Shown: positions 9,482-64,000 of the stretch, piece after piece
How the letters are laid out: each line of letters starts with the position of its first letter
Position numbering within the stretch: position 1 is the stretch's first letter
DNA from: Neisseria subflava
GTDB taxonomy: Bacteria > Pseudomonadota > Gammaproteobacteria > Burkholderiales > Neisseriaceae
NCBI RefSeq assembly: GCF_024205745.1
Contig: NZ_CP073117.1
Coordinates: 1,674,001 to 1,738,000, forward strand
DNA: 64,000 nucleotides
Direction: 5' to 3'
Notes under the pieces: model-generated
Database searches by the model: none
The model's input: only the letters and a program-made list of their open reading frames with translations
Told to the model about the DNA's origin: nothing
Made by a program: the position numbers and the translations under genes

Positions 9482-9737
9482 AATCTTAGGTTTCAGTTTT
9501 CAGACGGCTTGTTTTGATTGCAAACCGTTTTCTGTTGTATTTCGGCAATTTTTTTCTATTTTCCCACTTTTTTGAAAACATAGCTTGACGTTTTGTCTTA
9601 ACAAATGTAAAAAGACGGTTAAGCAGAAGTTGGCACTCGACCGCGTATACAATACGGGGGAGAAACGCTGAACGTTTTAGTTTGCTGTATGCCTTGTTTT
9701 GCTGATTTTGTTAATTTTTAAGTATAGGAAGTTTCTA

Positions 9738-9941
9738 ATGGCAACCGGTATCGTAAAATGGTTTAACGACGCTAAAGGTTTTGGTTTCATCACTCCTGAT
9801 GAAGGTGGCGAAGATTTGTTCGCTCACTTCTCAGCGATCAACATGGAAGGTTTCAAAACCCTGAAAGAAGGCCAACGCGTGTCTTTCGACGTAACCACCG
9901 GCCCTAAAGGCAAACAAGCTGCTAACATTCAAGCTGCTTAA
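9738..9941 (+). CDS. cspA: CspA family cold-shock protein
   Basis: This is a 67-residue single cold-shock domain that binds single-stranded RNA or DNA. It has the RNP1 motif KGFGFI (about 15-20) and RNP2-like DLFAHFS (about 28-34). The start at 9738 gives the standard [10 protein letters not shown]-terminus, with AGGAAG upstream. The upstream gap of about 250 bases is long enough for the extended leader that such genes often use for cold control; a TTGACG at 9585 with TAAAAA 17 bases on is a weak candidate promoter. Confidence 0.96.
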
Positions 9942-9971
9942 TCAAATGCGCGGCGTAAAAGCCGTAAAATC

Positions 9972-9996
9972 ATGGCGGGGTTTCCCGCCATTTTTT
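9972..9996 (+). terminator. Rho-independent terminator of cspA
   Basis: ATGGCGGG and CCCGCCAT form an eight-pair stem with a GTTT loop, followed by a T run. It is one of the few terminators here not built from DUS. Confidence 0.9.
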
Positions 9997-10018
9997 ATGG
10001 GCGTTCGAGTCAAAAATT

Positions 10019-10234
10019 ATGAATCAAAATTCATCTTATCAAAATGCTTTAAAGCAGCTAGACGAGCTTATCCGTTATTTCCGCAGCGAAGGCGAAGTTA
10101 GCTGCGCCGTTGCCGAGCGTGAAGACCAAATCTTGATCCGCCTTGCCGATTTGAAATTGGATTTACGCCCTGAAGATGAAAAAGCCATTGCCGATATAGA
10201 CCGCTTTTACCGCCGCCATGTTTTAAGCGAATAA
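10019..10234 (+). CDS. conserved small protein of unknown function
   Basis: The frame codes 71 residues, charged and mostly helical, with two predicted amphipathic helices and no signal or membrane segment. It opens MNQNSSYQNALKQLDELIRY. I do not recognise a family; the helical look made me consider the exonuclease VII small subunit, but the conserved XseB pattern is absent. It sits between cspA and smpB with coding-type composition and an ATG, but no strong ribosome site. Confidence 0.6.
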   Translation: MNQNSSYQNALKQLDELIRYFRSEGEVSCAVAEREDQILIRLADLKLDLRPEDEKAIADIDRFYRRHVLSE

Positions 10235-10318
10235 ACGTTTCAAAACCGTTTGCCGTTTTATTTTTTAAGCATGCCTGATAAAATAGGCCGTCTGAAAAGT
10301 TTGTAAAGAATCAGCATA

Positions 10319-10765
10319 ATGAGTATTGCCAATAATAAAAAAGCCTTTCACGATTTCTTTATCGAAGACCAAATCGAAGCCGGTATAGTATTGGAGGGAT
10401 GGGAAGTCAAAGCCATCCGCGCTGCACGTGTGCAATTAAAAGAAAGCTATATCTACTGGAAAAAAGACGCATTCTATTTGGTGGGCTGCCACATTACCGC
10501 ATTGCCCACTGCCTCGACACACGTCAAACCCGACCCTGTCCGTCCGCGTAAGTTGTTGTTGAAACAATCGGAAATCAACAAGTTAATCGGTAAAACCGAA
10601 CGCGCCGGTTATACGATTGTGCCTTTAAACCTGCATTACACCCGCGGTAGAATCAAAGTGGAAATCGGTTTGGCCAAGGGTAAGAAACAGCATGACAAAC
10701 GCCAAAGCCTGAAAGAAGCGGATTGGAAGCGTGAGAAACAGCGTTTGATGAAAAACGTACGTTGA
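10319..10765 (+). CDS. smpB: SsrA-binding protein SmpB
   Basis: SmpB binds tmRNA and brings it to stalled ribosomes for trans-translation. The 148-residue protein has the family start ([20 protein letters not shown]), the core [19 protein letters not shown], and the lysine-rich tail [22 protein letters not shown] that enters the ribosome decoding centre. A DUS lies between it and the gene before. The ssrA RNA gene is not seen in this window. Confidence 0.97.
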
Positions 10766-50172: not shown

Positions 50173-50280
50173 TTTTTAGTTAGAGTAAATGTAATTTAAA
50201 TATATTTAAGAAATTATATTGCAGTTGAATATTTGCAAGTATATGATTGGTGGTAAGTCACAGTAATAATATTGTATGTC

Positions 50281-52887
50281 ATGAAATTTACTTTTATTGC
50301 ACATGTTCGTCAAACGGATAAGTGTCCTCAATCTGTTCAAACCCATTTAATAGAAACGTCAGAACTTGCAAAAATATTTGCTCGAAAACTAAATTTAGAA
50401 CCAGTGGGTGAGTTGCTCGGCCTCATGCATGATTTCGGTAAATATTCCCGAAAATTCCAGAAATATATCCACGATGAAACCAGTTTGTTTAATCCTGATT
50501 TGGATGATGAAGAAAGTACCCCTAACGGCAGTAAAGTGGATCATTCCACCGCTGGTGCGCAATGGGTTTACCGCGAATTGAGAAAATCTGATAAATCTAA
50601 TAAACATGGAGATGAAATTAAAGATAAGGGCATCGGTGAACTGTGTGGACAGATATTAGGTTTGTGTATTGCCTCACACCACGGTGAAGGTTTGATTGAC
50701 TGTTTGGATGGAGAAGGTAATCCGAAATGGATTGAGCGGTTTAATAAAACTGATGAACTGACGCATTTGGCGGAATGCGAGCAAAATGCCGATGAAGTCG
50801 TTCAACAGAAAGCACGTGAATTGGCAGGAGAAAACCTAATTCGCAGCCTGCGGAATGCGGTGAAGTTGATTCTTTCCGACTCAACAGTCAATGACAAAAT
50901 CAAAGAGTTTTATCTCGGCTGCCTAACCCGCTTTCTATTTAGTTGCCTGATTGATGCCGACCGTATCAACAGCTCGGATTTTGAACGGGAAGCGCAGAAA
51001 AAAGTCCGTCGCTTGAGCGAAAAACCAGATTGGCAATCGGCGATTGATAAATTGGAAACGCATTTGGCGGGTTTCGGAAACCGTTATCCTGCTGATAAAA
51101 TCCGCCGCCAAATATCTGATGATTGTCTAAAAAGGGCAAAAGATTCCCAAGATAGGGAAGGAGACCCTCAAGGCATTTATACACTCACAGTGCCGACCGG
51201 CGGCGGCAAAACATTGGCCAGTCTGCGCTATGCCCTCCATCATGCGCAAAAGCACAATCTCGACCGTATTATCTACATCATTCCCTATACTTCCATCATT
51301 GATCAAAATGCGGAAGAAGTTCGTAAAATTTATTGTTTAGATTTGAAAGAAGATGACAATGGTGAATTTCATTCATGTAGAGAATGTTCAGAATGTGAGA
51401 AGTGGGTGCTCGAACACCATTCCAATTTAGAACCTGAAAAACAAAGCTGGCAGGACAAACTGCTGTCCGAAAACTGGGACAAGCCTATTGTGTTTACTAC
51501 CATGGTGCAGTTTTTGGACGCATGGTTTGGCGGCGGCACACGCGGCGCGCGGCACATCCATCCGATGACCAATGCGGTGCTGATTTTTGACGAAATTCAA
51601 ACCCTGCCTGTGAAATGCGTACATTTGTTTTGCAACGTATTGAACTGGCTGACGACATTTGGCAAAAGCACGGCGATTTTGTGTACGGCGACGCAGCCTT
51701 TGCTCGGCGAATCAGGCTTGCAGAATTTCCCAAAAGATAAAAGGGAAAGCATTGCCGCGCGCGGTTTGTTAAGGTTACCTGCACATGCCGAAATCATGGG
51801 AACTGATGAGCAAAGAGAAGAGCTTTATAAAAAGTTATCCCGCGTGGAAATTCGATTTAACGAAAAAGTGGGAGGCTGGAATGTAGAAGAAGCAGGCGCG
51901 TTCTTGCTGGAACAGTTTCAGACGACTCCAAGCTGCCTATTTATCGTCAATACCAAAAAATGGGCGCAGGAGCTTTATCAATATTCCCAAAGGCAGAATG
52001 TGCCGCCCGAGGCCTTGTTTCATTTAAGCACCAACCAATGCGCAGCACACCGCAAAGAGATTTTTGATACCATCAAAGCTCGTCTGAAAAACAAAGAACC
52101 TGTTATCTGCATCAGCACCCAGTTAATTGAAGCCGGTGTGGATATTTCCATGGCTTGCGTGATTCGTGCCTTAGGTGGGCTGGATAGCATTGCTCAAGCA
52201 GCGGGGCGTTGTAACCGCCACGGCGAGAAGGAAGGCAAGGGGCAGGTTTGGGTGTTGAATTTGCAGGAACAGGATTTTACGCGGATATTGCCCGATATTC
52301 AGGCAGGCAAGAACCATGCCGAACGTGTGTTTCGCGATTTTGCTGGACAGGATATTTTGCAGCCTGCCGCGATGGAACGTTATTTTGAATACTATTTTTA
52401 CCAGCGCAGCGATGAAATGGTTTATCAAATAGGAACAAAGGGGGAAGATAATTTATTGAATTTATTAAGTGATAATTGTCGCAACAAAGGCGCATCAGAT
52501 AAAAAAAGCGGTATGTTAAAAAATCATCTTTTAAGAAAAAATGATTTTTATCCTTTATTAATGCAGTCATTCAAAAGTGCGGGACGGGCTTTCCAAGCCA
52601 TTGACGCGCCGACCCGCGCCGTGATTGTGCCGTATGGCGAAGGCAGGGATTTGATTGCTTCGCTTTGTGGCGAATGGGACCCGAAAGAAATGTACCGCAC
52701 GCTGGCTAAAGCGCAGCGCTACAGTGTGAATGTGTTTCCGAATGTGTGGAAACAACTGCAAGAAAATCAAGCCTTGCAAGAGGTGCAGGCAGGTTTGGGC
52801 ATTTATTATTTGAAAGACGGGCATTACACCGATGAATACGGCTTGTCGGTGGATGAAACCGGCATCATGCCTACATACACTTTTTAG
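50281..52887 (+). CDS. cas3: type I-C CRISPR nuclease-helicase Cas3
   Basis: Cas3 is recruited by Cascade to unwind and cut target DNA. The 868 residues have an N-terminal HD nuclease domain (LMHDFGKYSRKFQ near 44, DHSTAGAQW near 85, ASHHGEG near 125) and an SF2 helicase: Walker A VPTGGGKTLAS near 302, IPYTSIIDQN, Walker B FDEIQTLP near 438 (DEIQ in place of DEAH), CTATQPLL, LIEAGVDIS and QAAGRCNRHGE near 640. The ATG at 50281 lacks a clear ribosome site; a TTG at 50272 is possible. First gene of the cas operon. Confidence 0.95.
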   Translation: MKFTFIAHVRQTDKCPQSVQTHLIETSELAKIFARKLNLEPVGELLGLMHDFGKYSRKFQKYIHDETSLFNPDLDDEESTPNGSKVDHSTAGAQWVYRELRKSDKSNKHGDEIKDKGIGELCGQILGLCIASHHGEGLIDCLDGEGNPKWIERFNKTDELTHLAECEQNADEVVQQKARELAGENLIRSLRNAVKLILSDSTVNDKIKEFYLGCLTRFLFSCLIDADRINSSDFEREAQKKVRRLSEKPDWQSAIDKLETHLAGFGNRYPADKIRRQISDDCLKRAKDSQDREGDPQGIYTLTVPTGGGKTLASLRYALHHAQKHNLDRIIYIIPYTSIIDQNAEEVRKIYCLDLKEDDNGEFHSCRECSECEKWVLEHHSNLEPEKQSWQDKLLSENWDKPIVFTTMVQFLDAWFGGGTRGARHIHPMTNAVLIFDEIQTLPVKCVHLFCNVLNWLTTFGKSTAILCTATQPLLGESGLQNFPKDKRESIAARGLLRLPAHAEIMGTDEQREELYKKLSRVEIRFNEKVGGWNVEEAGAFLLEQFQTTPSCLFIVNTKKWAQELYQYSQRQNVPPEALFHLSTNQCAAHRKEIFDTIKARLKNKEPVICISTQLIEAGVDISMACVIRALGGLDSIAQAAGRCNRHGEKEGKGQVWVLNLQEQDFTRILPDIQAGKNHAERVFRDFAGQDILQPAAMERYFEYYFYQRSDEMVYQIGTKGEDNLLNLLSDNCRNKGASDKKSGMLKNHLLRKNDFYPLLMQSFKSAGRAFQAIDAPTRAVIVPYGEGRDLIASLCGEWDPKEMYRTLAKAQRYSVNVFPNVWKQLQENQALQEVQAGLGIYYLKDGHYTDEYGLSVDETGIMPTYTF

Positions 52888-52900
52888 ATAAAGGAGCAAT

Positions 52901-53650
52901 ATGAACAGCACAATCACTTTCCGCGTATGGGGGCGGCAAGCGTTGTTTACCGATCCCGTTACCAAAATTGGCGGCGAAAAATTCAGCTATCAAGTGCCGA
53001 CTTACGAAGCGGTAAAAGGCATTTTGAAAAGTATTTATTGGAAACCCACTTTGATTTGGCACATCGATAAAATCCGTGTCATGAAGCCGATTCGTACGCA
53101 AAGTAAATCCATCAAACCAAGGCAATGGGAATCACCAAAAGGTATCGATCATACGCTTGCGATTTACACCTTTCTGCAAGATGTGGAATATCAAGTACAA
53201 GCACATTTTACTTGGAACGAATACTGGCAAGAACTCAAAGACGACCGCAATCTCGGCAAACATATGGCGATTGCGAAACGGATGCTGGAGCACGGCGGAC
53301 GACAGGATATTTTCTTGGGCACACGCGATTGTCAGGGCTATGTGGAGCCGTGCGAATTTGGCAGCCCAAGTCGAGATGGAAAAGCAGGCTTTTTCGATGG
53401 ATACGGCAACTTGGATTTCGGTCTGATGTTCCACAGCTTCGGCTATCCTGAAGAAACTGGAAAGCCCGAATTGGTCAGCCGTTTTTGGATGGCGAATATG
53501 CAAGACGGTGTAATTGAGTTTCCAAGCATCGACGATACAGAAGGTCGTCTGAAAACCCGATTTATCCGTAAAATGCAGCCTGAAAAACCGTTTAAGCGCG
53601 GCGAAAATGTCAAGCCTGTGGAAGACGAAGCCAAGGAGCTGGAATTATGA
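52901..53650 (+). CDS. cas5c: type I-C Cas5 (pre-crRNA endonuclease)
   Basis: In type I-C, Cas5 cuts the pre-crRNA in each repeat and caps the crRNA 5' handle, replacing Cas6, which is absent here. The 249-residue protein has the family start FRVWGRQALFTDPVTKIGGEK, the glycine-containing YQVPTYEAVKGILKSIYWKP and the ARKFRG-like CEFGSP region. AAAGGAGCAAT precedes the ATG. A mucosa-type DUS (53542-53553) codes EGRLK. It overlaps cas8c by four bases (ATGA). Confidence 0.94.
   Translation: MNSTITFRVWGRQALFTDPVTKIGGEKFSYQVPTYEAVKGILKSIYWKPTLIWHIDKIRVMKPIRTQSKSIKPRQWESPKGIDHTLAIYTFLQDVEYQVQAHFTWNEYWQELKDDRNLGKHMAIAKRMLEHGGRQDIFLGTRDCQGYVEPCEFGSPSRDGKAGFFDGYGNLDFGLMFHSFGYPEETGKPELVSRFWMANMQDGVIEFPSIDDTEGRLKTRFIRKMQPEKPFKRGENVKPVEDEAKELEL
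53542..53553 (+). repeat. variant DUS of mucosa/sicca type in cas5c
   Basis: AGGTCGTCTGAA inside the coding sequence. It differs from the host form at one base. Confidence 0.8.
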
Positions 53651-55692
53651 GCTGGATGCAGAAATTGTATCAGACATATAACGAAGTTGAAAAAAGTGCT
53701 GATTTATTAGACTTAGATAAAGAAACTCTTGCGCCACTATGGCATAGTCCGCAAACCGCACATATCAAAATTGTTTTGAGTGCTGATGGTGATTTTATTT
53801 CCGCTGAAGTATTACCAGACAAAACAATAGTGATGCTGCCTGTAACGGAAGATTCTGAAGGGCGTACAAGCGGCTATAGACCCCATGCATTATGTGACAG
53901 TATCCAATATGTTGCAAAGGATTTGGGCCATATAGGCAAAGAAAAAATTCAAATCGAGACAACAGATAAGAAAGGAAATAAAAAACTTAAAGAAAAGACT
54001 ATAGAGTGCGCAACCTTTGACTTATATATAAAGCAATTGGATGCGTGGTGTATGGATATGGAGACGAAAAATCCTAAAGTTCTTGCCATACAGAAATATG
54101 TACACAAAGGAACGGTTTTAGCGGATTTGATTAAAGCAAAAGTGGTGCCGATAGACAGCAGTGGAAAACTTTTGGAATCTTGGAGTAAGAAAGACGGCGA
54201 TATACAAGATAAACCTAAATTATTGGATGTGTTGGGACAAAATCCCGAAATTCGCAAAGCTTTAGTTATTTGGTCGGTGCAAACACATGATTTGGTTTCT
54301 GAAACTTGGAAAGATAAAGAGGTTCAACAAAGTTGGAGCAAACATTATCAAGATACTCTGATCAGTCGATTTTGTTCAGTAACTGGTAAAGAACAGAAAA
54401 TCCGCGAGAGTCACCCTGCTAAGTTAACTTATTCAGGTGATAAAGCAAAACTTATTTCTTCTAATGACAAAACAGGTTTTACTTATTTAGGTCGTTTTGA
54501 AGAGGCTAATCAAGCAGTTGCCATATCTGCCGAAGTTTCACATAAGGCGCATGCTGCATTACGCTGGTTAATCGAACGTCAAGGTATCCGCAATGATAAT
54601 CAAGTAACTGTTGTATGGGCAACCAGATTTGCGAATGCTGATGAGGATAAAGTCTTGTCTTTACCGTATCGGGCTGAAACAGATATTTATGCTGCATTAT
54701 TTGCCGAGGATAATATTAATGAAGCTGCTGATTTTGGTTTTGATGCGGCAAAGATCATGAAGAAAAGGTTGTACGGATATAGAGCAAAATTGCAAGACAA
54801 TGATCAGATATCCTTACTTGTTTTAGATGGAACAAGTCCAGGGAAGGGGCGTGCTGCATTAACTTACTATCAAGAGTGCTTACCTAAAGATTATTTTGCT
54901 AACCTAGATGCCTGGATAGACGACTTTTCTTGGTATCAACGTTATAAGCCTAAAGAAGGTAAACCTTGGTTATTTGTAGCCCCATCTATAGAGCGTATTG
55001 CAGATACGATTCTTAGCAAATCTGAATTGGAGGATAAGAGTAAGAAAGCCAAAAAACAACTCTACGCCCGTTTGCTTCCCGTAATTGCCGGCGGAAAAAA
55101 TGTGCCGATTCCTTATGATTTGGTGCAAAAAAGTTTTCAGACTGCTTGCAATCCCAACGGCAGCGAATATTGGGAGTGGCAACGAAATATCGGCGTTGCC
55201 TGCGCTTTATACAAAGGTTGGTATGTCCGTCATCACGATTTAGATTTATCAGAAAGGAAAACTTACTTTATGAGTTTAGAAAAAACAAATCAGTCGCGCG
55301 ACTATTTATATGGGCGCTTGCTTGCACAAGCAGAAAGTTTGGAGTGGTATGCCTTATATTTGCAAAATGGCAAAAAAGCACCTACTCGAGCAACCAATGC
55401 AGAGCGCTATTTTCAACAATTTGCACAGCGCCCTTATAGCACATGGCTAAATATTGAAAGTGTCAAACTTGTGCCATATAAAAACTATTTGACCAGCTTG
55501 GAAAAAGATTTTTATAAACAAGCTATTGGAGAAATTATGGATCTATTCGAAAACGATGACTTTATGTGCGATGATAAATTAAGCGGTGAATTTCTGCTTG
55601 GATATCATTGCCAAAAAATGGAAATCAACCGACAAATTGCTGAGCGTAAAGCTGCCAAGGCCAAGCAAAAGAAAACCGAAACCGCTAAATAA
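53647..55692 (+). CDS. cas8c: type I-C large subunit Cas8c (Csd1)
   Basis: The large Cascade subunit that recognises the PAM and helps load target DNA. The 681-residue protein starts MSWMQKLYQTYNEVEKS and shows the Csd1 pattern, including LVLDGTSPGKGRAALTYYQECLPKDYF near 395 and QRNIGVACALYKGWYV near 515, and ends in a Lys/Ala-rich tail. Its start overlaps the end of cas5c. The last 140 residues may also be made alone as Cas11c from an internal start at 55270. Confidence 0.94.
   Translation: MSWMQKLYQTYNEVEKSADLLDLDKETLAPLWHSPQTAHIKIVLSADGDFISAEVLPDKTIVMLPVTEDSEGRTSGYRPHALCDSIQYVAKDLGHIGKEKIQIETTDKKGNKKLKEKTIECATFDLYIKQLDAWCMDMETKNPKVLAIQKYVHKGTVLADLIKAKVVPIDSSGKLLESWSKKDGDIQDKPKLLDVLGQNPEIRKALVIWSVQTHDLVSETWKDKEVQQSWSKHYQDTLISRFCSVTGKEQKIRESHPAKLTYSGDKAKLISSNDKTGFTYLGRFEEANQAVAISAEVSHKAHAALRWLIERQGIRNDNQVTVVWATRFANADEDKVLSLPYRAETDIYAALFAEDNINEAADFGFDAAKIMKKRLYGYRAKLQDNDQISLLVLDGTSPGKGRAALTYYQECLPKDYFANLDAWIDDFSWYQRYKPKEGKPWLFVAPSIERIADTILSKSELEDKSKKAKKQLYARLLPVIAGGKNVPIPYDLVQKSFQTACNPNGSEYWEWQRNIGVACALYKGWYVRHHDLDLSERKTYFMSLEKTNQSRDYLYGRLLAQAESLEWYALYLQNGKKAPTRATNAERYFQQFAQRPYSTWLNIESVKLVPYKNYLTSLEKDFYKQAIGEIMDLFENDDFMCDDKLSGEFLLGYHCQKMEINRQIAERKAAKAKQKKTETAK
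55270..55692 (+). CDS. cas11c: internal start: probable small subunit Cas11c
   Basis: Inside cas8c and in the same frame, an ATG at 55270 (cas8c Met 542) follows AGAAAGGA with 11 bases between. It would give a 140-residue helical protein, MSLEKTNQSRDYLYGRL onward. Type I-C systems are known to make the small Cascade subunit Cas11c from such an internal start of cas8c, so this is the expected place and size. The proof here is only the ribosome-site-like sequence and position. Confidence 0.65.
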   Translation: MSLEKTNQSRDYLYGRLLAQAESLEWYALYLQNGKKAPTRATNAERYFQQFAQRPYSTWLNIESVKLVPYKNYLTSLEKDFYKQAIGEIMDLFENDDFMCDDKLSGEFLLGYHCQKMEINRQIAERKAAKAKQKKTETAK

Positions 55693-55715: not shown

Positions 55716-56624
55716 ATGAGCTTAACCAAAAAAATCGATTTCGCCTTAATTATCGGTGTACAAAATGCCAATCCCAACGGAGATCCTTTAAATGGCAACC
55801 GCCCGCGTGCTGATTTTTTTAATATCGGTGAGATAACAGATGTTTGCTTAAAGAGAAAAATTCGTGATCGCTTGCAAGAAAATGGGGAAGTTATTTTCGT
55901 ACAATCAGATGAAAAGAAAACTGACGGGATGACGAGCTTAAAAAATCGTGCTGAATCAGAAGAGTTTGGTTTAGGTAAGAGTGCTTTTGAATTTAAAAAA
56001 GGTGATAAAGATAAGAATAAGAAAAAGGATCAAACGAAAAGTGCAGCATGTGCAAAATGGTTTGATGTGCGAACCTTTGGGCAGGTATTTGCGTTTGGGA
56101 AAGGTCAGAATGAAGATGGTGTCTCTATTCCTATCCGAGGGCCGGTTACTATTCAATCTGCTTTTAGTGTTCAACCAATACGCATCATTGATAATCAAAT
56201 TGTGAAAAGTGTTGATAGCGATGATACTGAAGGAAAAAAAGCAAGAATGGGTATGAAATACCGTATAGATAAAGGTATTTACGTCGCCTTCGGCGCCATG
56301 TCGCCACAACTTGCCGAGCGCACCGGCTTTTCAGACGACGATGCCGAAAAAATCAAAGCCGTTCTCACCAAACTCTTTGAAGGCGACGCATCATCTGCCC
56401 GCCCCGAAGGCAGCATGCAGGTGCTGAAACTTATCTGGTGGGAACATAACAGCAAAGCAGGGCAATATTCTTCCGCTAAAGTGCATGGTAAGTTAAAAGA
56501 AATTATTGAAGAAAAAATAAAAAATAAATCCATTGATGGATTGATTGGGGACATAACCGAAGAAAAACTTACCGTTACGGGAAATGGAGCGTCATTGAAA
56601 CCCGAAATCCTTGATGGTTTTTAA
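55716..56624 (+). CDS. cas7c: type I-C backbone subunit Cas7c (Csd2)
   Basis: Six or so copies coat the crRNA in Cascade. The 302-residue protein has the family start KIDFALIIGVQNANPNGDPLNGNRPR, the FDVRTFGQVFAFG stretch near 121 and IPIRGPVTIQSAFSVQPI near 138. GAAAGGAAAACAAC precedes the ATG. Codon use changes partway: the first part is A+T-rich, while the part after about 56280 is G+C-rich, a sign of mosaic origin. Confidence 0.95.
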   Translation: MSLTKKIDFALIIGVQNANPNGDPLNGNRPRADFFNIGEITDVCLKRKIRDRLQENGEVIFVQSDEKKTDGMTSLKNRAESEEFGLGKSAFEFKKGDKDKNKKKDQTKSAACAKWFDVRTFGQVFAFGKGQNEDGVSIPIRGPVTIQSAFSVQPIRIIDNQIVKSVDSDDTEGKKARMGMKYRIDKGIYVAFGAMSPQLAERTGFSDDDAEKIKAVLTKLFEGDASSARPEGSMQVLKLIWWEHNSKAGQYSSAKVHGKLKEIIEEKIKNKSIDGLIGDITEEKLTVTGNGASLKPEILDGF

Positions 56625-56645
56625 CTTCTAAAAACGTTCAAAAAG

Positions 56646-57299
56646 ATGACCGCACTTTTAACCGAAACCCAAGGGGAAAATCAGGATACGCACCTGATTC
56701 CCCTTTCCGCCCTGCAACACTACGCCTTCTGCCCGCGCCAATGTGCGTTGATTCACAACGAGCAGGCGTGGGCGGAGAATTATTTGACCGCGGAGGGAAA
56801 GGCGCTGCATGAGCGGGTGGATTCGGGCGAGCCGGAAACGCGCAAGGGCGTGCGCTTTGAGCGGACAGTGCATGTGTCGGCGGAGAAACTGGGCATCAGC
56901 GGCGTGTTGGATTTGGTGGAAGTGGATACGAAAACAGGTCGTCTGAAACCCGTGGAATACAAACGCGGCAAACCCAAACCCGACCCGATGGACGAAATCC
57001 AGCTTTGCGCCCAAGGTTTGTGTTTGGAAGAAATGACGGGGCAAACCGTCTCTGAGGGCGCGCTGTGGTATATGCAAACCCGCCACCGCGTCCCCGTCGT
57101 GTTTTCAGACGACCTGCGCGCCCAAACCCTCGCCACCATCGCCGCCGTGCGCGAACTCTTGGGCAGTGGACTAACCCCGCCGCCCAACTACGGCAAACGC
57201 TGCAAAGCCTGCTCGCTGGTGGAGATTTGCCAGCCGGAGTTGCTGGGGAAACGGGATAGGAGTGTGGGGTATGTGGCGGGGTTGTTTGGGGAAGATTAA
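56646..57299 (+). CDS. cas4: CRISPR adaptation nuclease Cas4
   Basis: Cas4 trims pre-spacers and selects the PAM end before Cas1-Cas2 integration. The 217 residues have an iron-sulphur cluster held by FCPRQC near 28-33 and CKACSLVEIC near 188-198, and a RecB-type nuclease site with ISGVLDLVEV near 80 and the PVEYKRGK lysine near 103. Two mucosa-type DUS copies lie in the gene (56936-56947 and 57104-57115). It is G+C-rich, unlike the reverse transcriptase gene after it. Confidence 0.94.
   Translation: MTALLTETQGENQDTHLIPLSALQHYAFCPRQCALIHNEQAWAENYLTAEGKALHERVDSGEPETRKGVRFERTVHVSAEKLGISGVLDLVEVDTKTGRLKPVEYKRGKPKPDPMDEIQLCAQGLCLEEMTGQTVSEGALWYMQTRHRVPVVFSDDLRAQTLATIAAVRELLGSGLTPPPNYGKRCKACSLVEICQPELLGKRDRSVGYVAGLFGED
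56936..56947 (+). repeat. variant DUS of mucosa/sicca type in cas4
   Basis: AGGTCGTCTGAA, coding part of TGRLKP. A second copy on the other strand is at 57104-57115. Confidence 0.8.
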
Positions 57300-57348
57300 A
57301 AAATAAATAATAGATGTGTAAGTACTTTTATGATGGGATAAACAATAA

Positions 57349-58833
57349 ATGAGTCGAAAAAGCATTTTAGAACTGAACGCTAATGAAGCAAGGCAATTCT
57401 TTTTGAAACATGAAAGCTATTGCAACATTGATTTACCTAAATATTTTTCATTCTCTGAATTATTAGAGAAAATATCTAATGAATATTCAGGGAAATCGTT
57501 GGGAGATTTTTCAGACAAAAAGAAAATGACGAATTTAGATGATGTGAATTATCTTTTATATGCCAATAAAGATGGGAAATTATCATGGAGACCATTGCAG
57601 ATCATAAATCCTCTAGTATATGTGGCATTAATACATAAAATTACTGAACAGAAAAATTGGAAAAAAATACAGGCAAGATTTAAGAATTTTAGTAAAAATG
57701 AAAAAATAAAATGTTTAAGCATACCTGTTCAATCGGAAAATAAACAATCTGACAAAGCTCAGCAAATTTCAAATTGGTGGGAACAAGTAGAACAGCAGTC
57801 TATTTTGCTCTCATTGGAGTATGACTACGTTTTTGATACAGATGTAGCAGATTGTTATGGTTCAATTTATACACACTCTATTGCCTGGGCTGTTGATGGA
57901 AGAAAAAAAGCTAAAAATAATCGAAAAAATAATTTGCTTGGCAATTTTATAGATGCAACCATACAAAATGCCCAGTATGGGCAGACTAATGGTATTCCAC
58001 AAGGCTCGGTGTTGATGGACTTTATAGCTGAGATTGTCTTAGGTTATATAGATTTGATTCTCACAATAGCGCTAAAAAAATGTAAAGTTAAGCAGTATCA
58101 GATTTTACGTTATCGTGATGATTATCGAATTTTTGTTTGCAATTCTAATGATGGTGAGATGCTTCTGAAATTGCTTTCCGAAATTATGATGCCTTTTGGA
58201 TTCAAGTTGAATTCGAGCAAAACCAAAGGAAGTCAAGATGTTATTACTCAATCGATAAAAAAGGACAAACTGGCTTGGTTAGCTATTCCTCAAAATAATA
58301 GAATCAGTTTACAAAAGCAACTTCTACTTATTAGACAGCATAGTATTAATCATGCTAATTCTGGTAGTTTAAATACCGCATTAAATAAATTTGATAAACA
58401 GATAGAGAGAATTAGAAATAAAAAAGGAAAGGTGCATAATATAGAGCAGCTTATTAGTATTGCAACAGATATTGCATACCATAATCCGAAAGTAATACCA
58501 GTGTGTTGCGCAATCATTAGTAAACTACTTTCAGAATTGGACGATAGCAAGCAAATATCTTTATTGGTTCATAGAAAATTAAGTAGAATGCCTAATTCAG
58601 GATTTGCACAGATTTGGTTGCAAAGAATGTTGAAAGATAATTTAAGTGAATTTAAGTTTTCTGAAAAAATATGTGAATTACAGAATAGCCAGATAAGTTT
58701 ATGGAATTATAGCTGGGCAAAGGGTAGAAATATGCTAAATATATTAAATAACACATCTATTTTCCTACAAGCAGAATTTGATAAATTAGATAATATTATT
58801 CCTAATAATGAAATTGACCTTTTTGATTATTAG
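57349..58833 (+). CDS. stand-alone reverse transcriptase inside the cas operon
   Basis: The 494-residue protein has the RT core: an early SWRPLQIINPLVYVALIHKI stretch near 79-98, motif A DTDVADCYGSIYTHS (Asp 165), motif B NGIPQGS at 214-220, motif C YRDD at 255-258 and GFKLNSSKTK near 284. The last 165 residues look helical, with repeat-like HNPKVIPVCCAIISKLL. That helical end recalls the Abi and unknown-group (DRT) defence RTs, not group II introns: no maturase or endonuclease domain is seen. It lies between cas4 (49 bases) and cas1 (63 bases), on the same strand, is strongly A+T-rich and has no DUS. It is not fused to Cas1. Confidence 0.88.
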   Translation: MSRKSILELNANEARQFFLKHESYCNIDLPKYFSFSELLEKISNEYSGKSLGDFSDKKKMTNLDDVNYLLYANKDGKLSWRPLQIINPLVYVALIHKITEQKNWKKIQARFKNFSKNEKIKCLSIPVQSENKQSDKAQQISNWWEQVEQQSILLSLEYDYVFDTDVADCYGSIYTHSIAWAVDGRKKAKNNRKNNLLGNFIDATIQNAQYGQTNGIPQGSVLMDFIAEIVLGYIDLILTIALKKCKVKQYQILRYRDDYRIFVCNSNDGEMLLKLLSEIMMPFGFKLNSSKTKGSQDVITQSIKKDKLAWLAIPQNNRISLQKQLLLIRQHSINHANSGSLNTALNKFDKQIERIRNKKGKVHNIEQLISIATDIAYHNPKVIPVCCAIISKLLSELDDSKQISLLVHRKLSRMPNSGFAQIWLQRMLKDNLSEFKFSEKICELQNSQISLWNYSWAKGRNMLNILNNTSIFLQAEFDKLDNIIPNNEIDLFDY

Positions 58834-58896
58834 AAAATAAATAATTTTCAGCTAATCCTCTAACCAAAACGGAATCTAACCACAAGGAGCTTCCCC

Positions 58897-59910
58897 ATGC
58901 GCAAACTGCAAAACACGCTCTATATCACCACCCAAGGCAGCTATCTGCATAAGGAGCGGGAGACGCTGGTGGTGGAGCAGGAGCGTAAGAAGGTGGCGCA
59001 GTTGCCGGTGCATTCCATCGGGCATATTTTCTGTTTTGGCAATGTGCTGGTGTCGCCTTTTCTGCTTGGGTTTTGCAGTGAAAATAATGTGAATTTGGCG
59101 TTTTTTACCGAAAACGGGCGTTTTTTGGGGCGGCTTCAGGGACGGCAGAGCGGCAATGTGCTGCTGCGTCGGGCGCAGTATCGGGTGTCGGAGCAAAATC
59201 CTGTGCCGATTGCGCGCAATATCATTGCGGCGAAGATTCAGGCGAGTAAACGGGTGCTTCAGCGGCAAATTCGCAATTACGGCGAGAATGCGGCGATTCA
59301 AAGGGCGGTCGATTCTTTGAACATTTCGCTGCGGCAGTTGAAGGGCGCGGCGGAGCTGGACGTGGTACGCGGTATTGAAGGCGATGCAGCGGCGCGTTAT
59401 TTCGGCGTGTTTGGGCGGCTTTTGAGCGAAAAAAGCAGCTTTTCTTTTGACGGACGCAACCGCCGTCCGCCCAGAGACGGGGTGAACGCGCTATTGTCGT
59501 TTGTTTACAGCATCTTGGGCAAGGACATCAGCGGCGCGCTGCAAGGCGTGGGGCTGGATCCGCAGGTAGGCTTTCTGCACGCCGACCGACCGGGTCGCGA
59601 CAGTTTGGCGCAGGATATTTTGGAAGAATTCCGCGCATGGTGGGCGGACAGGCTGGTGTTGTCGCTGATTAACCGCGGGCAAATCAAACCGCAGGATTTT
59701 GTTACCGAAGCAAGCGGCGCGGTAAGCTTAAAAGCCGATGCGCGTAAGCTGTTGTTCCAAGCTTTGCAGGTGAAAAAGCAGGAGAAAATCGTACATCCGT
59801 TTTTGGGTGAAGAAGTAGAAATCGGGCTGCTGCCGTATATTCAGGCAATGCTGTTGGCGCGCCATTTGCGCGGAGATTTGGTAGAATATCCGCCGTTTTT
59901 GATGAGATAG
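58897..59910 (+). CDS. cas1: CRISPR integrase Cas1 (type I-C)
   Basis: Cas1 integrates new spacers at the leader end of the array with Cas2. The 337-residue protein has an N-terminal beta domain (1-105) and a helical catalytic domain with the metal ligands glutamate in VRGIEGDAAARYFG near 160, histidine in GFLHADRPGRDSL near 227 and acidic residues in LAQDILEEFRAWW near 240-245. ACAAGGAGCTTCCCC precedes the ATG. It is separated from cas2 by a mucosa-type DUS hairpin. Confidence 0.96.
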   Translation: MRKLQNTLYITTQGSYLHKERETLVVEQERKKVAQLPVHSIGHIFCFGNVLVSPFLLGFCSENNVNLAFFTENGRFLGRLQGRQSGNVLLRRAQYRVSEQNPVPIARNIIAAKIQASKRVLQRQIRNYGENAAIQRAVDSLNISLRQLKGAAELDVVRGIEGDAAARYFGVFGRLLSEKSSFSFDGRNRRPPRDGVNALLSFVYSILGKDISGALQGVGLDPQVGFLHADRPGRDSLAQDILEEFRAWWADRLVLSLINRGQIKPQDFVTEASGAVSLKADARKLLFQALQVKKQEKIVHPFLGEEVEIGLLPYIQAMLLARHLRGDLVEYPPFLMR

Positions 59911-59916
59911 GCTTGC

Positions 59917-59955
59917 AGGTCGTCTGAAAACGGGTTGGATGTTTTCAGACGACCT
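59917..59955 (+). terminator. inverted mucosa-type DUS hairpin between cas1 and cas2
   Basis: AGGTCGTCTGAAAAC pairs perfectly with GTTTTCAGACGACCT around GGGTTGGAT. It has the form of other DUS terminators here but in the foreign dialect, and it would lower cas2 expression if active. Confidence 0.75.
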
Positions 59956-59983
59956 TTAAGGCAGCCTGCACATGGGAATACAA

Positions 59984-60277
59984 ATGCTGATGCTGATTAC
60001 TTACGATATTTCGCTGGAAGACGCGGAAGGACAGGCAAGGCTGCGGCGCGTGGCGAAATTGTGTCTGGACTACGGCGTGCGTGTGCAGTATTCAGTGTTC
60101 GAATGCGACATCGCACCTGATCAGTGGGTTGTTTTAAAAGACAAACTTTTGAAAACCTACAACCCTGAAACCGACAGCCTGCGCTTTTACCATCTAGGCA
60201 GCAAATGGCGACGCAAAGTGGAACACCACGGCGCGAAACCGGCGGTGGATGTGTTTAAGGATACGTTGATTGTGTGA
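59984..60277 (+). CDS. cas2: CRISPR integration factor Cas2
   Basis: Cas2 forms the central dimer of the integration complex. From the ATG at 59984 it is 97 residues, the normal type I-C length, starting MLMLITYDIS and with the RVQYSVFECDI strand near 33. An ATG at 59972 would add four residues; I prefer 59984 because the family starts MLxLITYD and GGGA lies just upstream. Confidence 0.94.
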   Translation: MLMLITYDISLEDAEGQARLRRVAKLCLDYGVRVQYSVFECDIAPDQWVVLKDKLLKTYNPETDSLRFYHLGSKWRRKVEHHGAKPAVDVFKDTLIV

Positions 60278-60466
60278 ATCGCCAACCTGCGGTTCTCATG
60301 AAAATGCGGCAGGTTTGGCGAATTGGGATTGTTCTTTAACAATCAGGATATTGTGAATGCGGGTGTAACAGAAAAGGCTGTGTTATACTCGCATTTCTGC
60401 TTTTCTTGAGAGTTTAGCGAGATTAGGTTTACGAAACCTGATGGAGCAAGGCTTTTAAGAGAGGCA
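60278..60466 (+). promoter_or_regulatory. CRISPR leader
   Basis: The 189 bases between cas2 and the first repeat contain an extended -10 promoter, TGTTATACT at 60381-60389, about 80 bases before the array, with no good -35. The array is transcribed on the plus strand, with repeats ending GTTGAAAC as in other type I-C systems, so this is the leader end where new spacers enter. Confidence 0.7.
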
Positions 60467-63400
60467 CCAGCCGCCTTCAGGCGGCTGTGTGTTGAAACCG
60501 CCAACAATCGGCAAACCGATACAGCCTGCCTTCCAGCCGCCTTCAGGCGGCTGTGTGTTGAAACTGTTACTGATGAAAGTACCGAACGCCATGATGAATC
60601 CAGCCGCCTTCAGGCGGCTGTGTGTTGAAACTGGTGTTTGCGGAAGATATTGTGAACTGGATTCCCAGCCGCCTTCAGGCGGCTGTGTGTTGAAACTACA
60701 AAATCCGGCATAGACGACAAGTCCATTTTGCCAGCCGCCTTCAGGCGGCTGTGTGTTGAAACGCTAAACGGATTGCAGGGGGCAGTCTTGGTATGCCCAG
60801 CCGCCTTCAGGCGGCTGTGTGTTGAAACTCCAGTGCCATAGCTGTACCGTCGTCGGCGTAGATCCAGCCGCCTTCAGGCGGCTGTGTGTTGAAACATAAT
60901 TTGACTCCTAAGATTTTGGATTCATGCGCCCAGCCGCCTTCAGGCGGCTGTGTGTTGAAACAACGAAGTCTTTGGCCGGTCGCAACTGCGTTGCCCAGCC
61001 GCCTTCAGGCGGCTGTGTGTTGAAACGTCCTCTGTGGCAAGAAGCCAGCCAGCCATTGTTCCAGCCGCCTTCAGGCGGCTGTGTGTTGAAACCTCTTGGC
61101 CGGTGCGTTGGTTATTACCAAAACGTGCCAGCCGCCTTCAGGCGGCTGTGTGTTGAAACTTGAATAAGCTGGTTTGTCTTCTGTTGGAACAGACCAGCCG
61201 CCTTCAGGCGGCTGTGTGTTGAAACCATCTTTTTTGTTGGTCAAAATGAACCACTAGACAGCCAGCCGCCTTCAGGCGGCTGTGTGTTGAAACTATTGGT
61301 TAATGTCTGTATAGTCAATTTCCGCGACCCAGCCGCCTTCAGGCGGCTGTGTGTTGAAACAGTGAGTAACCTATTCAAAGGATATTAAAATGACCCAGCC
61401 GCCTTCAGGCGGCTGTGTGTTGAAACCTCTTCGGTCACACCACCGATACTGCGCAGGACCCAGCCGCCTTCAGGCGGCTGTGTGTTGAAACAATCGCGTC
61501 ATAGTAGTACACGTCAATACCACGCGCCCAGCCGCCTTCAGGCGGCTGTGTGTTGAAACCATCAGGTGGCTGGCGTGTTCGGTGGCGCAGTCACCAGCCG
61601 CCTTCAGGCGGCTGTGTGTTGAAACTAAAACCTGCTGGATGGGCGGCTCGACGGTGTACCAGCCGCCTTCAGGCGGCTGTGTGTTGAAACTGCCGAGCGT
61701 ACATTCTCACGCTCCCGACGCTCACCCAGCCGCCTTCAGGCGGCTGTGTGTTGAAACATCGATTGAAGAATCCTCCTGAAAATATCTTTAAATCCAGCCG
61801 CCTTCAGGCGGCTGTGTGTTGAAACAATCGTAATGCCGACACCACGGACTACACCAATACCCAGCCGCCTTCAGGCGGCTGTGTGTTGAAACCTTGCAGA
61901 ATCTTGAGGCGTTGCTCGGTGTTGATCCAGCCGCCTTCAGGCGGCTGTGTGTTGAAACATATGATTTAAATGAACAAAAATTATATGATAAAACCAGCCG
62001 CCTTCAGGCGGCTGTGTGTTGAAACATTAGCAAACAGTATCCAATATAATGTTTGGAAAGCCCAGCCGCCTTCAGGCGGCTGTGTGTTGAAACTAGTTCT
62101 TCTAAGTTTTTCTTATCTTTACCTTTGGCCCAGCCGCCTTCAGGCGGCTGTGTGTTGAAACAAGACAATGTTTCTGCAACAATTGTTGATGTTGACCAGC
62201 CGCCTTCAGGCGGCTGTGTGTTGAAACTTTTGTTTTGTTTAACCGTGTTGAATCACATGGTTCCAGCCGCCTTCAGGCGGCTGTGTGTTGAAACGACTGG
62301 GAGGAGGGTGTATATGAGGAAACTGTAACCAGCCGCCTTCAGGCGGCTGTGTGTTGAAACGGCAATCCTGAAGCCATGCACTTCGCGCCTGATGACTCCA
62401 GCCGCCTTCAGGCGGCTGTGTGTTGAAACTAAATATAGGTCAATCTAAGTATGCTTTATTGTCCCAGCCGCCTTCAGGCGGCTGTGTGTTGAAACTCGCG
62501 CTGAAGCTGATTGGTTATTTGGTATCAACGGCCAGCCGCCTTCAGGCGGCTGTGTGTTGAAACTCTTATCCCGAAGAAGTCGCGCGTAATCGAGACCCCA
62601 GCCGCCTTCAGGCGGCTGTGTGTTGAAACGCTCTGCTTTGCCCGCAGATTGGCAAAAGGTTTACGCCAGCCGCCTTCAGGCGGCTGTGTGTTGAAACAGT
62701 CATCACTTGTTTGATTTGGTATTTGACCCAGACCAGCCGCCTTCAGGCGGCTGTGTGTTGAAACGATTTCCTCTTGCTCTTCGGCGCGCTCGCCTGCTCC
62801 AGCCGCCTTCAGGCGGCTGTGTGTTGAAACCAACCATACAGCCATCAATGCCCAACTTCTCGACCCAGCCGCCTTCAGGCGGCTGTGTGTTGAAACAATG
62901 CACTCATACGGCTGCTGGCGGTAATGTGCCGCCAGCCGCCTTCAGGCGGCTGTGTGTTGAAACCTACCTTATCCAAAGTGGTCATATTGACCTGTCCAGC
63001 CGCCTTCAGGCGGCTGTGTGTTGAAACAGACGATCGTCGGGGTGGTTATTGCCGTGGTCGGCCAGCCGCCTTCAGGCGGCTGTGTGTTGAAACGACCGAT
63101 AGAGAGGTGAACAAGACTTATTTTGCCAGCCAGCCGCCTTCAGGCGGCTGTGTGTTGAAACGAATCGCAGTAATCACGCCATTTGTAACCGTACACCCAG
63201 CCGCCTTCAGGCGGCTGTGTGTTGAAACCGTATTGACGAGCAGGAGACCCCATATCAAGGTCCCAGCCGCCTTCAGGCGGCTGTGTGTTGAAACATCGTA
63301 AACGTCTTTCAACGGCGGCTGTTTCGTCCCAGCCGCCTTCAGGCGGCTGTGTGTTGAAACTCGAATAGCGAAGCCAGCCTACCATCATTACACCCCAGCC

Positions 63401-64000
63401 GCCTTCAGGCGGCTGTGTGTTGAAACGGCACGAGTGCGGACGTGATGGAATGCAGTGTGTCCCAGCCGCCTTCAGGCGGCTGTGTGTTGAAACCCCTTAA
63501 TTGCCTCTGATGGCGCGGCGGTCGCCCCAGCCGCCTTCAGGCGGCTGTGTGTTGAAACCGTAATATCCGCGACGGCCTGCTGCGTCAGCCCACCAGCCGC
63601 CTTCAGGCGGCTGTGTGTTGAAACAAGACAAAATCAAAGCCAAAGCCGCCATGATTCCCCAGCCGCCTTCAGGCGGCTGTGTGTTGAAACTTGATCATAT
63701 AAGCTCCCGAGTCGGCGTGATAAGCCCAGCCGCCTTCAGGCGGCTGTGTGTTGAAACACTAAACTTTAAAAAAAGGACAAAAAATGAAGACCCAGCCGCC
63801 TTCAGGCGGCTGTGTGTTGAAACACAACCCCCCGTGCAACAGTGGTTAATCTGTCCGCCAGCCGCCTTCAGGCGGCTGTGTGTTGAAACAAAAAGCTGCG
63901 AAGCGCAGGCGATGTATTGGGGCACCAGCCGCCTTCAGGCGGCTGTGTGTTGAAACTGCAAGGCATCTTCGGAGACGATGCCGAGACGCTCCAGCCGCCT
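60467..64000 (+). CRISPR. type I-C CRISPR array, 53 full repeats, continues past window
   Basis: A 32-base repeat starting CCAGCCGCCTTCAGGCGGCT and ending GTGTGTTGAAAC recurs 53 times in full from 60467, with a cut 54th copy at 63991. All copies look identical. Spacers are 32-37 bases and all different by eye. In RNA, CAGCCGCC pairs with GGCGGCTG around a TTCA loop, the hairpin recognised by Cas5c, leaving an 11-base 5' handle GTGTTGAAAC-type after cutting. No repeat decay is seen, so the true end of the array lies beyond the window. Confidence 0.99.

Follow-up and report, generated by a model that had tools for sequence, protein, structure and literature searches.

Group II-like CRISPR reverse transcriptases (RTs) belong to type III loci and are often fused to Cas1. 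This picture of the type III class comes in part from the accessible text of PMC8934634, which, citing Toro et al. 2019, also states that Haemophilus haemolyticus has a type I-C locus with an RT related to Abi-P2; there the gene is presented as a CRISPR-associated RT, and that portion of the paper mentions neither the position of the gene nor a variable slot. Abi-P2 itself is an abortive-infection RT of P2-like prophages (structure 7r08; PADLOC AbiP2, DRT group), and its published members, in the accessible part of PMC9508834, are prophage-borne. According to the same part, protein-primed, template-independent DNA synthesis and phage exclusion are reported for Abi-P2 and AbiK, and the orf570 product confers resistance to phage T5 (PMC9508834). 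The Abi-P2 construct described there comprises residues 1-541 of the EC30 prophage protein; Abi-P2 synthesizes DNA, the Y61F substitution abolishes the synthesis while Y46F does not, and Tyr61 is reported as the primer (PMC9508834). Core-genome defence hotspots, e.g. in Pseudomonas, combine conserved flanks with swappable defence genes (PMC10250203).

In the window, which is the whole 64,000-nucleotide stretch of Neisseria subflava DNA analysed here, an RT gene lies inside a type I-C operon with the order cas3-cas5-cas8c-cas7-cas4-RT-cas1-cas2-array, the cas genes and the RT all being on the + strand. The seven cas genes match curated models, which indicate type I-C wherever they are subtype-specific; in the profile search, cas5c, csd1, csd2 and cas1_DVULG were all above cut-off, and the cas genes stand in the order cas3-cas5-cas8-cas7-cas4-cas1-cas2. 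The features are as follows (for the slot, see below).

50272..52887, + strand: cas3 (type I-C helicase/HD nuclease); Pfam Cas3_HD and Cas3-like_C_2, TIGR01587, TIGR01596; the ATG at 50281 is a possible start
52901..53650, + strand: cas5c; TIGR01876, 232 bits (cut-off 85)
53647..55692, + strand: cas8c (Csd1); TIGR01863, 290 bits (cut-off 219)
55716..56624, + strand: cas7c (Csd2); TIGR02589, 296 bits (cut-off 182)
56646..57299, + strand: cas4, left wall of the slot; TIGR00372, 144 bits (cut-off 65); PADLOC Cas4c, 274 bits; flank comparison
57349..58833, + strand: RT assigned to Abi-P2 by homology, occupant of the slot; PADLOC AbiP2, 661.5 bits; 7r08, E 3.9e-93; residue conservation
58834..58896, + strand: cas1-proximal border of the slot; sequence and border comparison; to the eye, a degenerate form of the element that bears exact uptake motifs at the border of other loci
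58897..59910, + strand: cas1c, right wall of the slot; TIGR03640, 495 bits (cut-off 385)
59972..60277, + strand: cas2; Pfam CRISPR_Cas2, TIGR01573; choice of start codon uncertain
60467..64000, no strand assigned: type I-C CRISPR array; 53 identical 32-nt repeats in the window, continuing past its end

The RT is an intact ORF of 494 aa, 49 nt from the end of cas4 (57299) and 63 nt from the start of cas1 (58897), and its G+C content is 0.31 against 0.59 in cas4 and 0.55 in cas1. These values reproduce what the preliminary description had reported, namely a stand-alone RT between cas4 and cas1 of a type I-C operon at exactly these coordinates, on the strand of the cas genes, with gaps of 49 and 63 bases and an A+T bias between two G+C-rich genes. 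Its call of RT motifs with YRDD was equally sound (Pfam RVT_1, E 3.3e-9; YRDD at 255-258; D165), and the gene is the sole RVT_1 match of the genome. In a pattern scan, no terminator-like site was listed on the + strand between cas4 and cas1, and one was listed inside cas1; the scan returned 5 terminator-like sites against 4.0 in shuffles, and 13 promoter-like sites against 7.7 (sd 2.3), three of which lie inside the RT on the + strand. The RT is likely co-transcribed with the cas operon. No Rfam match reached the gathering score across 56600-60600, and the non-coding DNA beside the RT, limited to 49 and 63 nt, leaves little room for a conserved ncRNA of the DRT2/DRT9/DRT10 kind, although an RNA not yet described may be encoded there.

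The PADLOC AbiP2 model matches residues 2-493 of the RT, with Drt6 as the runner-up at 177 bits, and the solved Abi-P2 (7r08) matches residues 4-492 by phmmer in an alignment that reaches the end of 7r08 and covers the C-terminal half of the RT. The catalytic residues D165 and YRDD are at least 95% conserved in 78 rows and invariant in 26 rows. When the 7r08 alignment was mapped by eye, Tyr61 of Abi-P2 fell on Y32 and Tyr46 on F17, so that the priming residue is retained and the dispensable one is replaced; Y32 is kept in 77 of 78 homologues, the remaining row being a gap. The dN/dS ratio is 0.11 between the RTs of the window and N. viridiae, the sole pair with clearly unsaturated dS (dS is saturated in most other RT pairs), and from this one usable pair the RT protein looks intact and under purifying selection. 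By homology, the RT would be a protein-primed DNA polymerase of the Abi-P2 type: it shares with Abi-P2 nearly the full length of the sequence, the catalytic motif and the priming tyrosine, and differs from the prophage-borne members in lying inside a cas operon. We also considered, and rejected, a group II-like CRISPR RT, since group_II_RT_mat gave 61 bits against a cut-off of 300, the locus is type I-C and there is no Cas1 fusion. The likeness to group II-like CRISPR RTs and RT-Cas1 fusions is that the RT adjoins cas1; the RT class and the CRISPR type are others, the protein is unfused and its presence is not conserved. The H. haemolyticus RT shares both the RT group and the CRISPR subtype with the window, and the mention in the preliminary description of Abi-like RTs near type I-C loci is confirmed in print for Haemophilus (PMC8934634, accessible text). 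The RT family and the occurrence of an Abi-P2 RT in type I-C were, accordingly, already known.

A scan for relatives with one genome per species found 95 RTs, of which 80 were kept. By tblastn with the window's eight proteins (E 1e-4), 76 of the 80 are without any cas gene, a count in which short contigs and distant Cas types could hide further cas-linked relatives. The remaining four have cas genes, in N. viridiae (L002), Cricetibacter (L003), N. weixii (L004) and Rodentibacter (L005), and in each of them the RT is placed after cas4. Together with the window RT they form one clade in the RT tree (support 100/98), which the L005 RT entered minus its N-terminal part, and the nearest neighbours of this clade are stand-alone Abi-P2 of Neisseria and Pasteurellaceae genomes; the 16-kb neighbourhoods of the stand-alone Abi-P2 genes L115, L203 and L204 contain no match to the window's cas genes. 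In the survey of type I-C loci for the same placement, which the preliminary description had proposed, the RT is present in 5 of the 84 loci having both cas4 and cas1, in two families, and is absent from 79. Three of the five RT loci are damaged, the RT frame being broken in L005, cas1 being reduced to fragments in L002 and split in L004. Their effector types differ as well, the window and L005 having one Cas7/Cas8 type and L002-L004 another, whose Cas7 is about 36% identical to that of the window.

Some further features of these loci were observed. In the Cricetibacter slot, the ORF after the RT is 198 aa long and has a HEPN match below threshold (L206 4142-4735 and L003 9479-10075, one and the same locus), and a 172-aa ORF also sits between cas1 and cas2 of this locus. 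The Rodentibacter RT (L005 8001-9499) runs out of frame near residue 50 in the assembly, and the 222-aa ORF after it (9669-10337) has no Pfam or PADLOC match. In N. viridiae (L002 9485-11522), cas1 consists of two N-terminal fragments flanking a 299-aa ORF; next comes a second cas4, which is partial, and the genome holds an additional cas1-cas2 locus (L126).

The position of the RT was then set against a survey of 223 genomes, one per species, in which 26 of the 83 Neisseriaceae and 50 of the 140 Pasteurellaceae had a cas1_DVULG match above cut-off. All loci above cut-off and several broken ones were fetched, and four junctions were measured. Of 84 type I-C loci, 67 have 200 bp or more between cas4 and cas1 (median gap 1100), against gaps of this size at 0/78 cas8-cas7, 7/80 cas7-cas4 and 2/83 cas1-cas2 junctions, and filled cas4-cas1 gaps span about 0.3-2.9 kb. 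These counts omit loci without detectable cas4 (L126, L133, L191, L201, and L235 of a class-wide sample) and score the rearranged L146 and L147, which have negative gaps, as unfilled; the duplicate fetches L116, L119 and L206 were removed, L206 being in a count of 94 ORFs and out of the count of 92 ORFs given below. A cargo slot exists, then, between cas4 and cas1 of Neisseriaceae and Pasteurellaceae type I-C operons. The preliminary description had overlooked that the RT is one occupant of this variable slot.

Beyond the two families, an even class-wide sample of 369 genomes gave 31 further type I-C loci from other Gammaproteobacteria (L207-L237), 30 of them with detectable cas4. Here a separation of 200 bp or more was measured for cas4-cas1 in 6/30 and for cas7-cas4 in 14/30, with cas3 itself lying in two of these cas7-cas4 gaps; the gene ends were estimated by extending partial alignments and are accurate only to tens of bases. 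The ten ORFs scanned in these loci included a ParE/antitoxin pair, a HEPN/nucleotidyltransferase pair, Bro-N and RhuM proteins. Both loci above cut-off in Streptococcaceae (97 genomes) are tight. Accessory genes beside cas4 occur more widely, and the strongly filled cas4-cas1 slot is, in this sample, that of the Neisseriaceae/Pasteurellaceae lineage.

Cargo ORFs of at least 50 aa number 92 and fall into 60 clusters, and 52 clusters have a member of at least 100 aa. Among 51 representatives of at least 100 aa, 50 were scanned with Pfam (all except L171_c1) and 30 with PADLOC; 16 of the 50 match a recognised defence family and 34 match none, and 19 of the 50 are without a Pfam match. The recognised cargo comprises OLD/TOPRIM, DarT with DarG, SMODS with SLATT (CBASS-like), a second SLATT family, Shedu, PstI-like and AlwI-like restriction-modification pairs, CAP12-type TIR, GmrSD, and relatives of PD-T4-7 and PDC-S54. 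Less surely defence are PIN, HNH, Fic, NYN-LOTUS, RhuM and Nmad2 proteins and the sub-threshold HEPN match behind the Cricetibacter RT. Counted by slot, 20 of the 67 hold a recognised defence gene, a figure that includes the five RTs (one broken) and members of clusters with a scanned representative and is given without a measured genome background. Conserved flanking genes thus enclose unrelated, interchangeable cargo that includes known defence genes, which is what marks a defence hotspot. The difference from core-genome hotspots such as those of Pseudomonas (PMC10250203) is that the flanks here are CRISPR adaptation genes and that the cargo, ~0.3-2.9 kb, lies inside an operon. In the open-access literature searched, we found no paper on a cas4-cas1 cargo slot; a Pasteurellaceae CRISPR study gives the plain order cas3-cas5-cas8c-cas7-cas4-cas1-cas2, its accessible text leaving a cargo slot unmentioned (PMC13016550), as does that of a second Pasteurellaceae CRISPR study (PMC4771134). 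A defence hotspot placed inside an adaptive-immunity operon is apparently new.

Evidence for exchange of the cargo came from the flanks and from the trees. The last 500 bp of the window's cas4 together with the first 900 bp of its cas1 are 92-95% identical to those of 17 of 21 loci compared (7 Neisseriaceae and 10 Pasteurellaceae), and the slots of these 17 have no detectable similarity to that of the window; the 21 loci were hand-chosen for close flanks, with the four other RT loci included. Among 18 loci with nearly identical Cas1, which form one clade with both families mixed, 3 of 153 pairs share a cargo cluster. Across families, cargo is shared in 23 pairs among the 63 slots with ORFs, and six of these are RT pairs. 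The Cas1 partners of the slot RTs are not monophyletic: forcing the Cas1 proteins of the window, L003 and L005 together was rejected (AU p 0.0003) in a test of three RT-bearing rows, from which L002 and L004 are out for their broken cas1, and whose group was defined by the RT although the Cas1 tree had been viewed before testing. The Cas1 trees omit proteins shorter than 250 aa (12 loci, including L002 and L004) and loci without a start. From the flanks and the trees, we infer that recombination within the conserved 3' end of cas4 and 5' end of cas1 exchanges the cargo. In the RT-bearing loci, the divergence of the slot from the window is about equal to that of the flanks in L003 and L005 and somewhat greater in L002 and L004, so that the RT may have stayed long in some lineages. 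This agreement between the RT region and its flanks may speak against a simple account of the RT as a recent hitchhiker and also fits long residence.

The cas1-side border of the slot contains a cluster of uptake-like motifs of the Hin-USS and DUS types. In 17/65 loci, the last 130 nt ahead of cas1 contain the Hin-type uptake core AAGTGCGGT, against 2/576 other slot windows, and a DUS-like pattern, TTCAG[GA][CT][AG]GC, is present in 18/65 border windows against 3/576; shuffles gave 0.00 for the Hin-USS core and 0.07 for the DUS-like pattern. The border set is made of 65 loci (L176 and L198 were dropped for want of a start), whose rows are related and not independent. Border copies of AAGTGCGGT are always on the cas strand, and 6 of 24 Neisseriaceae loci have one. 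The window's own border holds a degenerate version and no exact uptake core, and, taken over whole slots, USS/DUS motifs are no denser than in the cas genes. The finding in Neisseria loci of an uptake motif of the Pasteurellaceae type ahead of cas1 points to inter-family transfer, and the border motifs could mark a route of gene flow between Neisseria and Pasteurellaceae. The exchange of cargo would then be driven by transformation.

Taken together, the data make it probable that the RT is a self-contained anti-phage gene of the Abi-P2 type, sitting in a cassette-exchange slot between cas4 and cas1, swapped by recombination and unneeded for spacer uptake. The identity that the sequence comparisons make most likely is that of an autonomous defence gene of the Abi type in a slot open to exchange, as opposed to that of a spacer-acquisition enzyme. 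By analogy with Abi-P2 and AbiK, the RT would make DNA primed on Y32 upon infection and thereby defend the cell. The slot takes one or a few genes, almost without exception on the strand of the operon and in good part known defence genes; swaps would proceed by recombination in the cas4 3' and cas1 5' ends, probably following natural transformation, and the uptake motifs clustered just upstream of cas1 may aid them. The cas operon would provide transcription and a conserved landing site, and the RT would be an added second line of defence, dispensable for spacer uptake. The preliminary description had left two roads open, and it is the independent anti-phage RT of the Abi/DRT type, hitchhiking in the operon, that gains from the AbiP2 profile, from the 76 of 80 relatives without a cas gene and from the filling of the same site elsewhere by unrelated genes, known defence genes included. 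The slot offers an explanation of why a type I-C operon can house an Abi-type RT that takes no part in the uptake of RNA spacers, and what looked like a single odd gene becomes part of a pattern in which a CRISPR adaptation operon also serves as an exchange site and many of the cargo genes are immune genes.

An extended form of this account, which we put forward tentatively and hold to be considerably less probable, is that the cas4-cas1 junction of type I-C operons is a dedicated docking site, where naturally transformable members of two families swap entire innate-defence cassettes and whose cas1 end bears the uptake signals of both, and that the adaptation operon controls the cargo, with the RT as a built-in second line backing up or guarding spacer acquisition. 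If this is true, one landing pad would serve two gene pools.

For suicide genes beside cas1, a back-up or guard role has been proposed in general. A coupling of this kind, in which the RT would fire when adaptation or interference is blocked, seems unlikely to us for the window. It would account for the preference of cargo for one junction inside the adaptation module and for the abortive-infection and toxin types found in slots (DarTG, TIR, SMODS/SLATT, Fic, the weak HEPN match, Abi-P2), as well as for the toxin-antitoxin and HEPN/nucleotidyltransferase pairs beside cas4 in other Gammaproteobacteria; the restriction-modification pairs in the slot, however, need no coupling, and the same RT clade stands beside different Cas1 lineages and effector types. 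The slot makes it testable whether genes beside cas1 are coupled to CRISPR adaptation or are mere hitchhikers.

Poorer still are the prospects of an RT that belongs to the adaptation module and makes or tails the DNA inserted by Cas4-Cas1-Cas2, with spacers coming from RNA or from RT products. The position cas4-RT-cas1 on one strand, the single RT clade at this position in five loci of two families and the roughly parallel divergence of RT and flanks in L003 and L005 would all suit such an enzyme, as would the long, homogeneous array, which in the genome has 105 exact repeats (107 in all; G000:C1 1734467-1742757). Against it, the RT is missing from 79 of the 84 related loci that have both cas4 and cas1, the Cas1 partners come from separate lineages, the RT is of the Abi-P2 and not the group II-like class, and the same site takes restriction enzymes, DarTG and others without a known link to adaptation. 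The other road of the preliminary description, spacer uptake from RNA together with Cas4-Cas1-Cas2, found no support and shares the low probability of this reading.

The targets of the spacers are too few to decide on the role of the RT. With up to 6 mismatches, five candidate matches were found outside arrays, all in other Neisseria genomes, and a comparison of the array with phage records gave no match at E 0.01. TTC is the published I-C motif in Haemophilus (PMC13016550, accessible text). Here, sp43 (3 mismatches) has TTC directly upstream, sp37 (1 mismatch) and sp21 (6 mismatches) have CTC directly upstream, sp36 (5 mismatches) has TTC shifted by one base and sp48 (5 mismatches) has no motif. 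The targets of sp21 and sp43 are antisense to the longest overlapping ORF, and sp36 and sp37 have competing ORFs.

That the cas4-cas1 gap merely tolerates insertions, its cargo being random pieces of transferred DNA without a selected role, is also very improbable: in 11 of the 67 slots, ORFs make up less than 75% of the length (and less than half in 8 of these 11), one slot has an IS1595 transposase next to a GmrSD gene and several loci are damaged, but 56 of the 67 are covered to at least 75%, 88 of 92 cargo ORFs lie on the cas strand (which the ORF picker favoured), the one usable pair indicates purifying selection on the RT, and the other junctions of the same operon are rarely filled.

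The slot is also a source of candidate defence genes, given the 34 of 50 scanned representatives without a recognised defence family. Three slots (L127, L167 and L186) share a 226-aa ORF that runs against the cas strand, with a weak DUF1889 match in the one scanned. A cargo family of 570-585 aa recurs in L138 (4177-5931), L159 and L198, and thus in both families; neither Pfam nor PADLOC matched its representative, and it is a candidate new defence gene.
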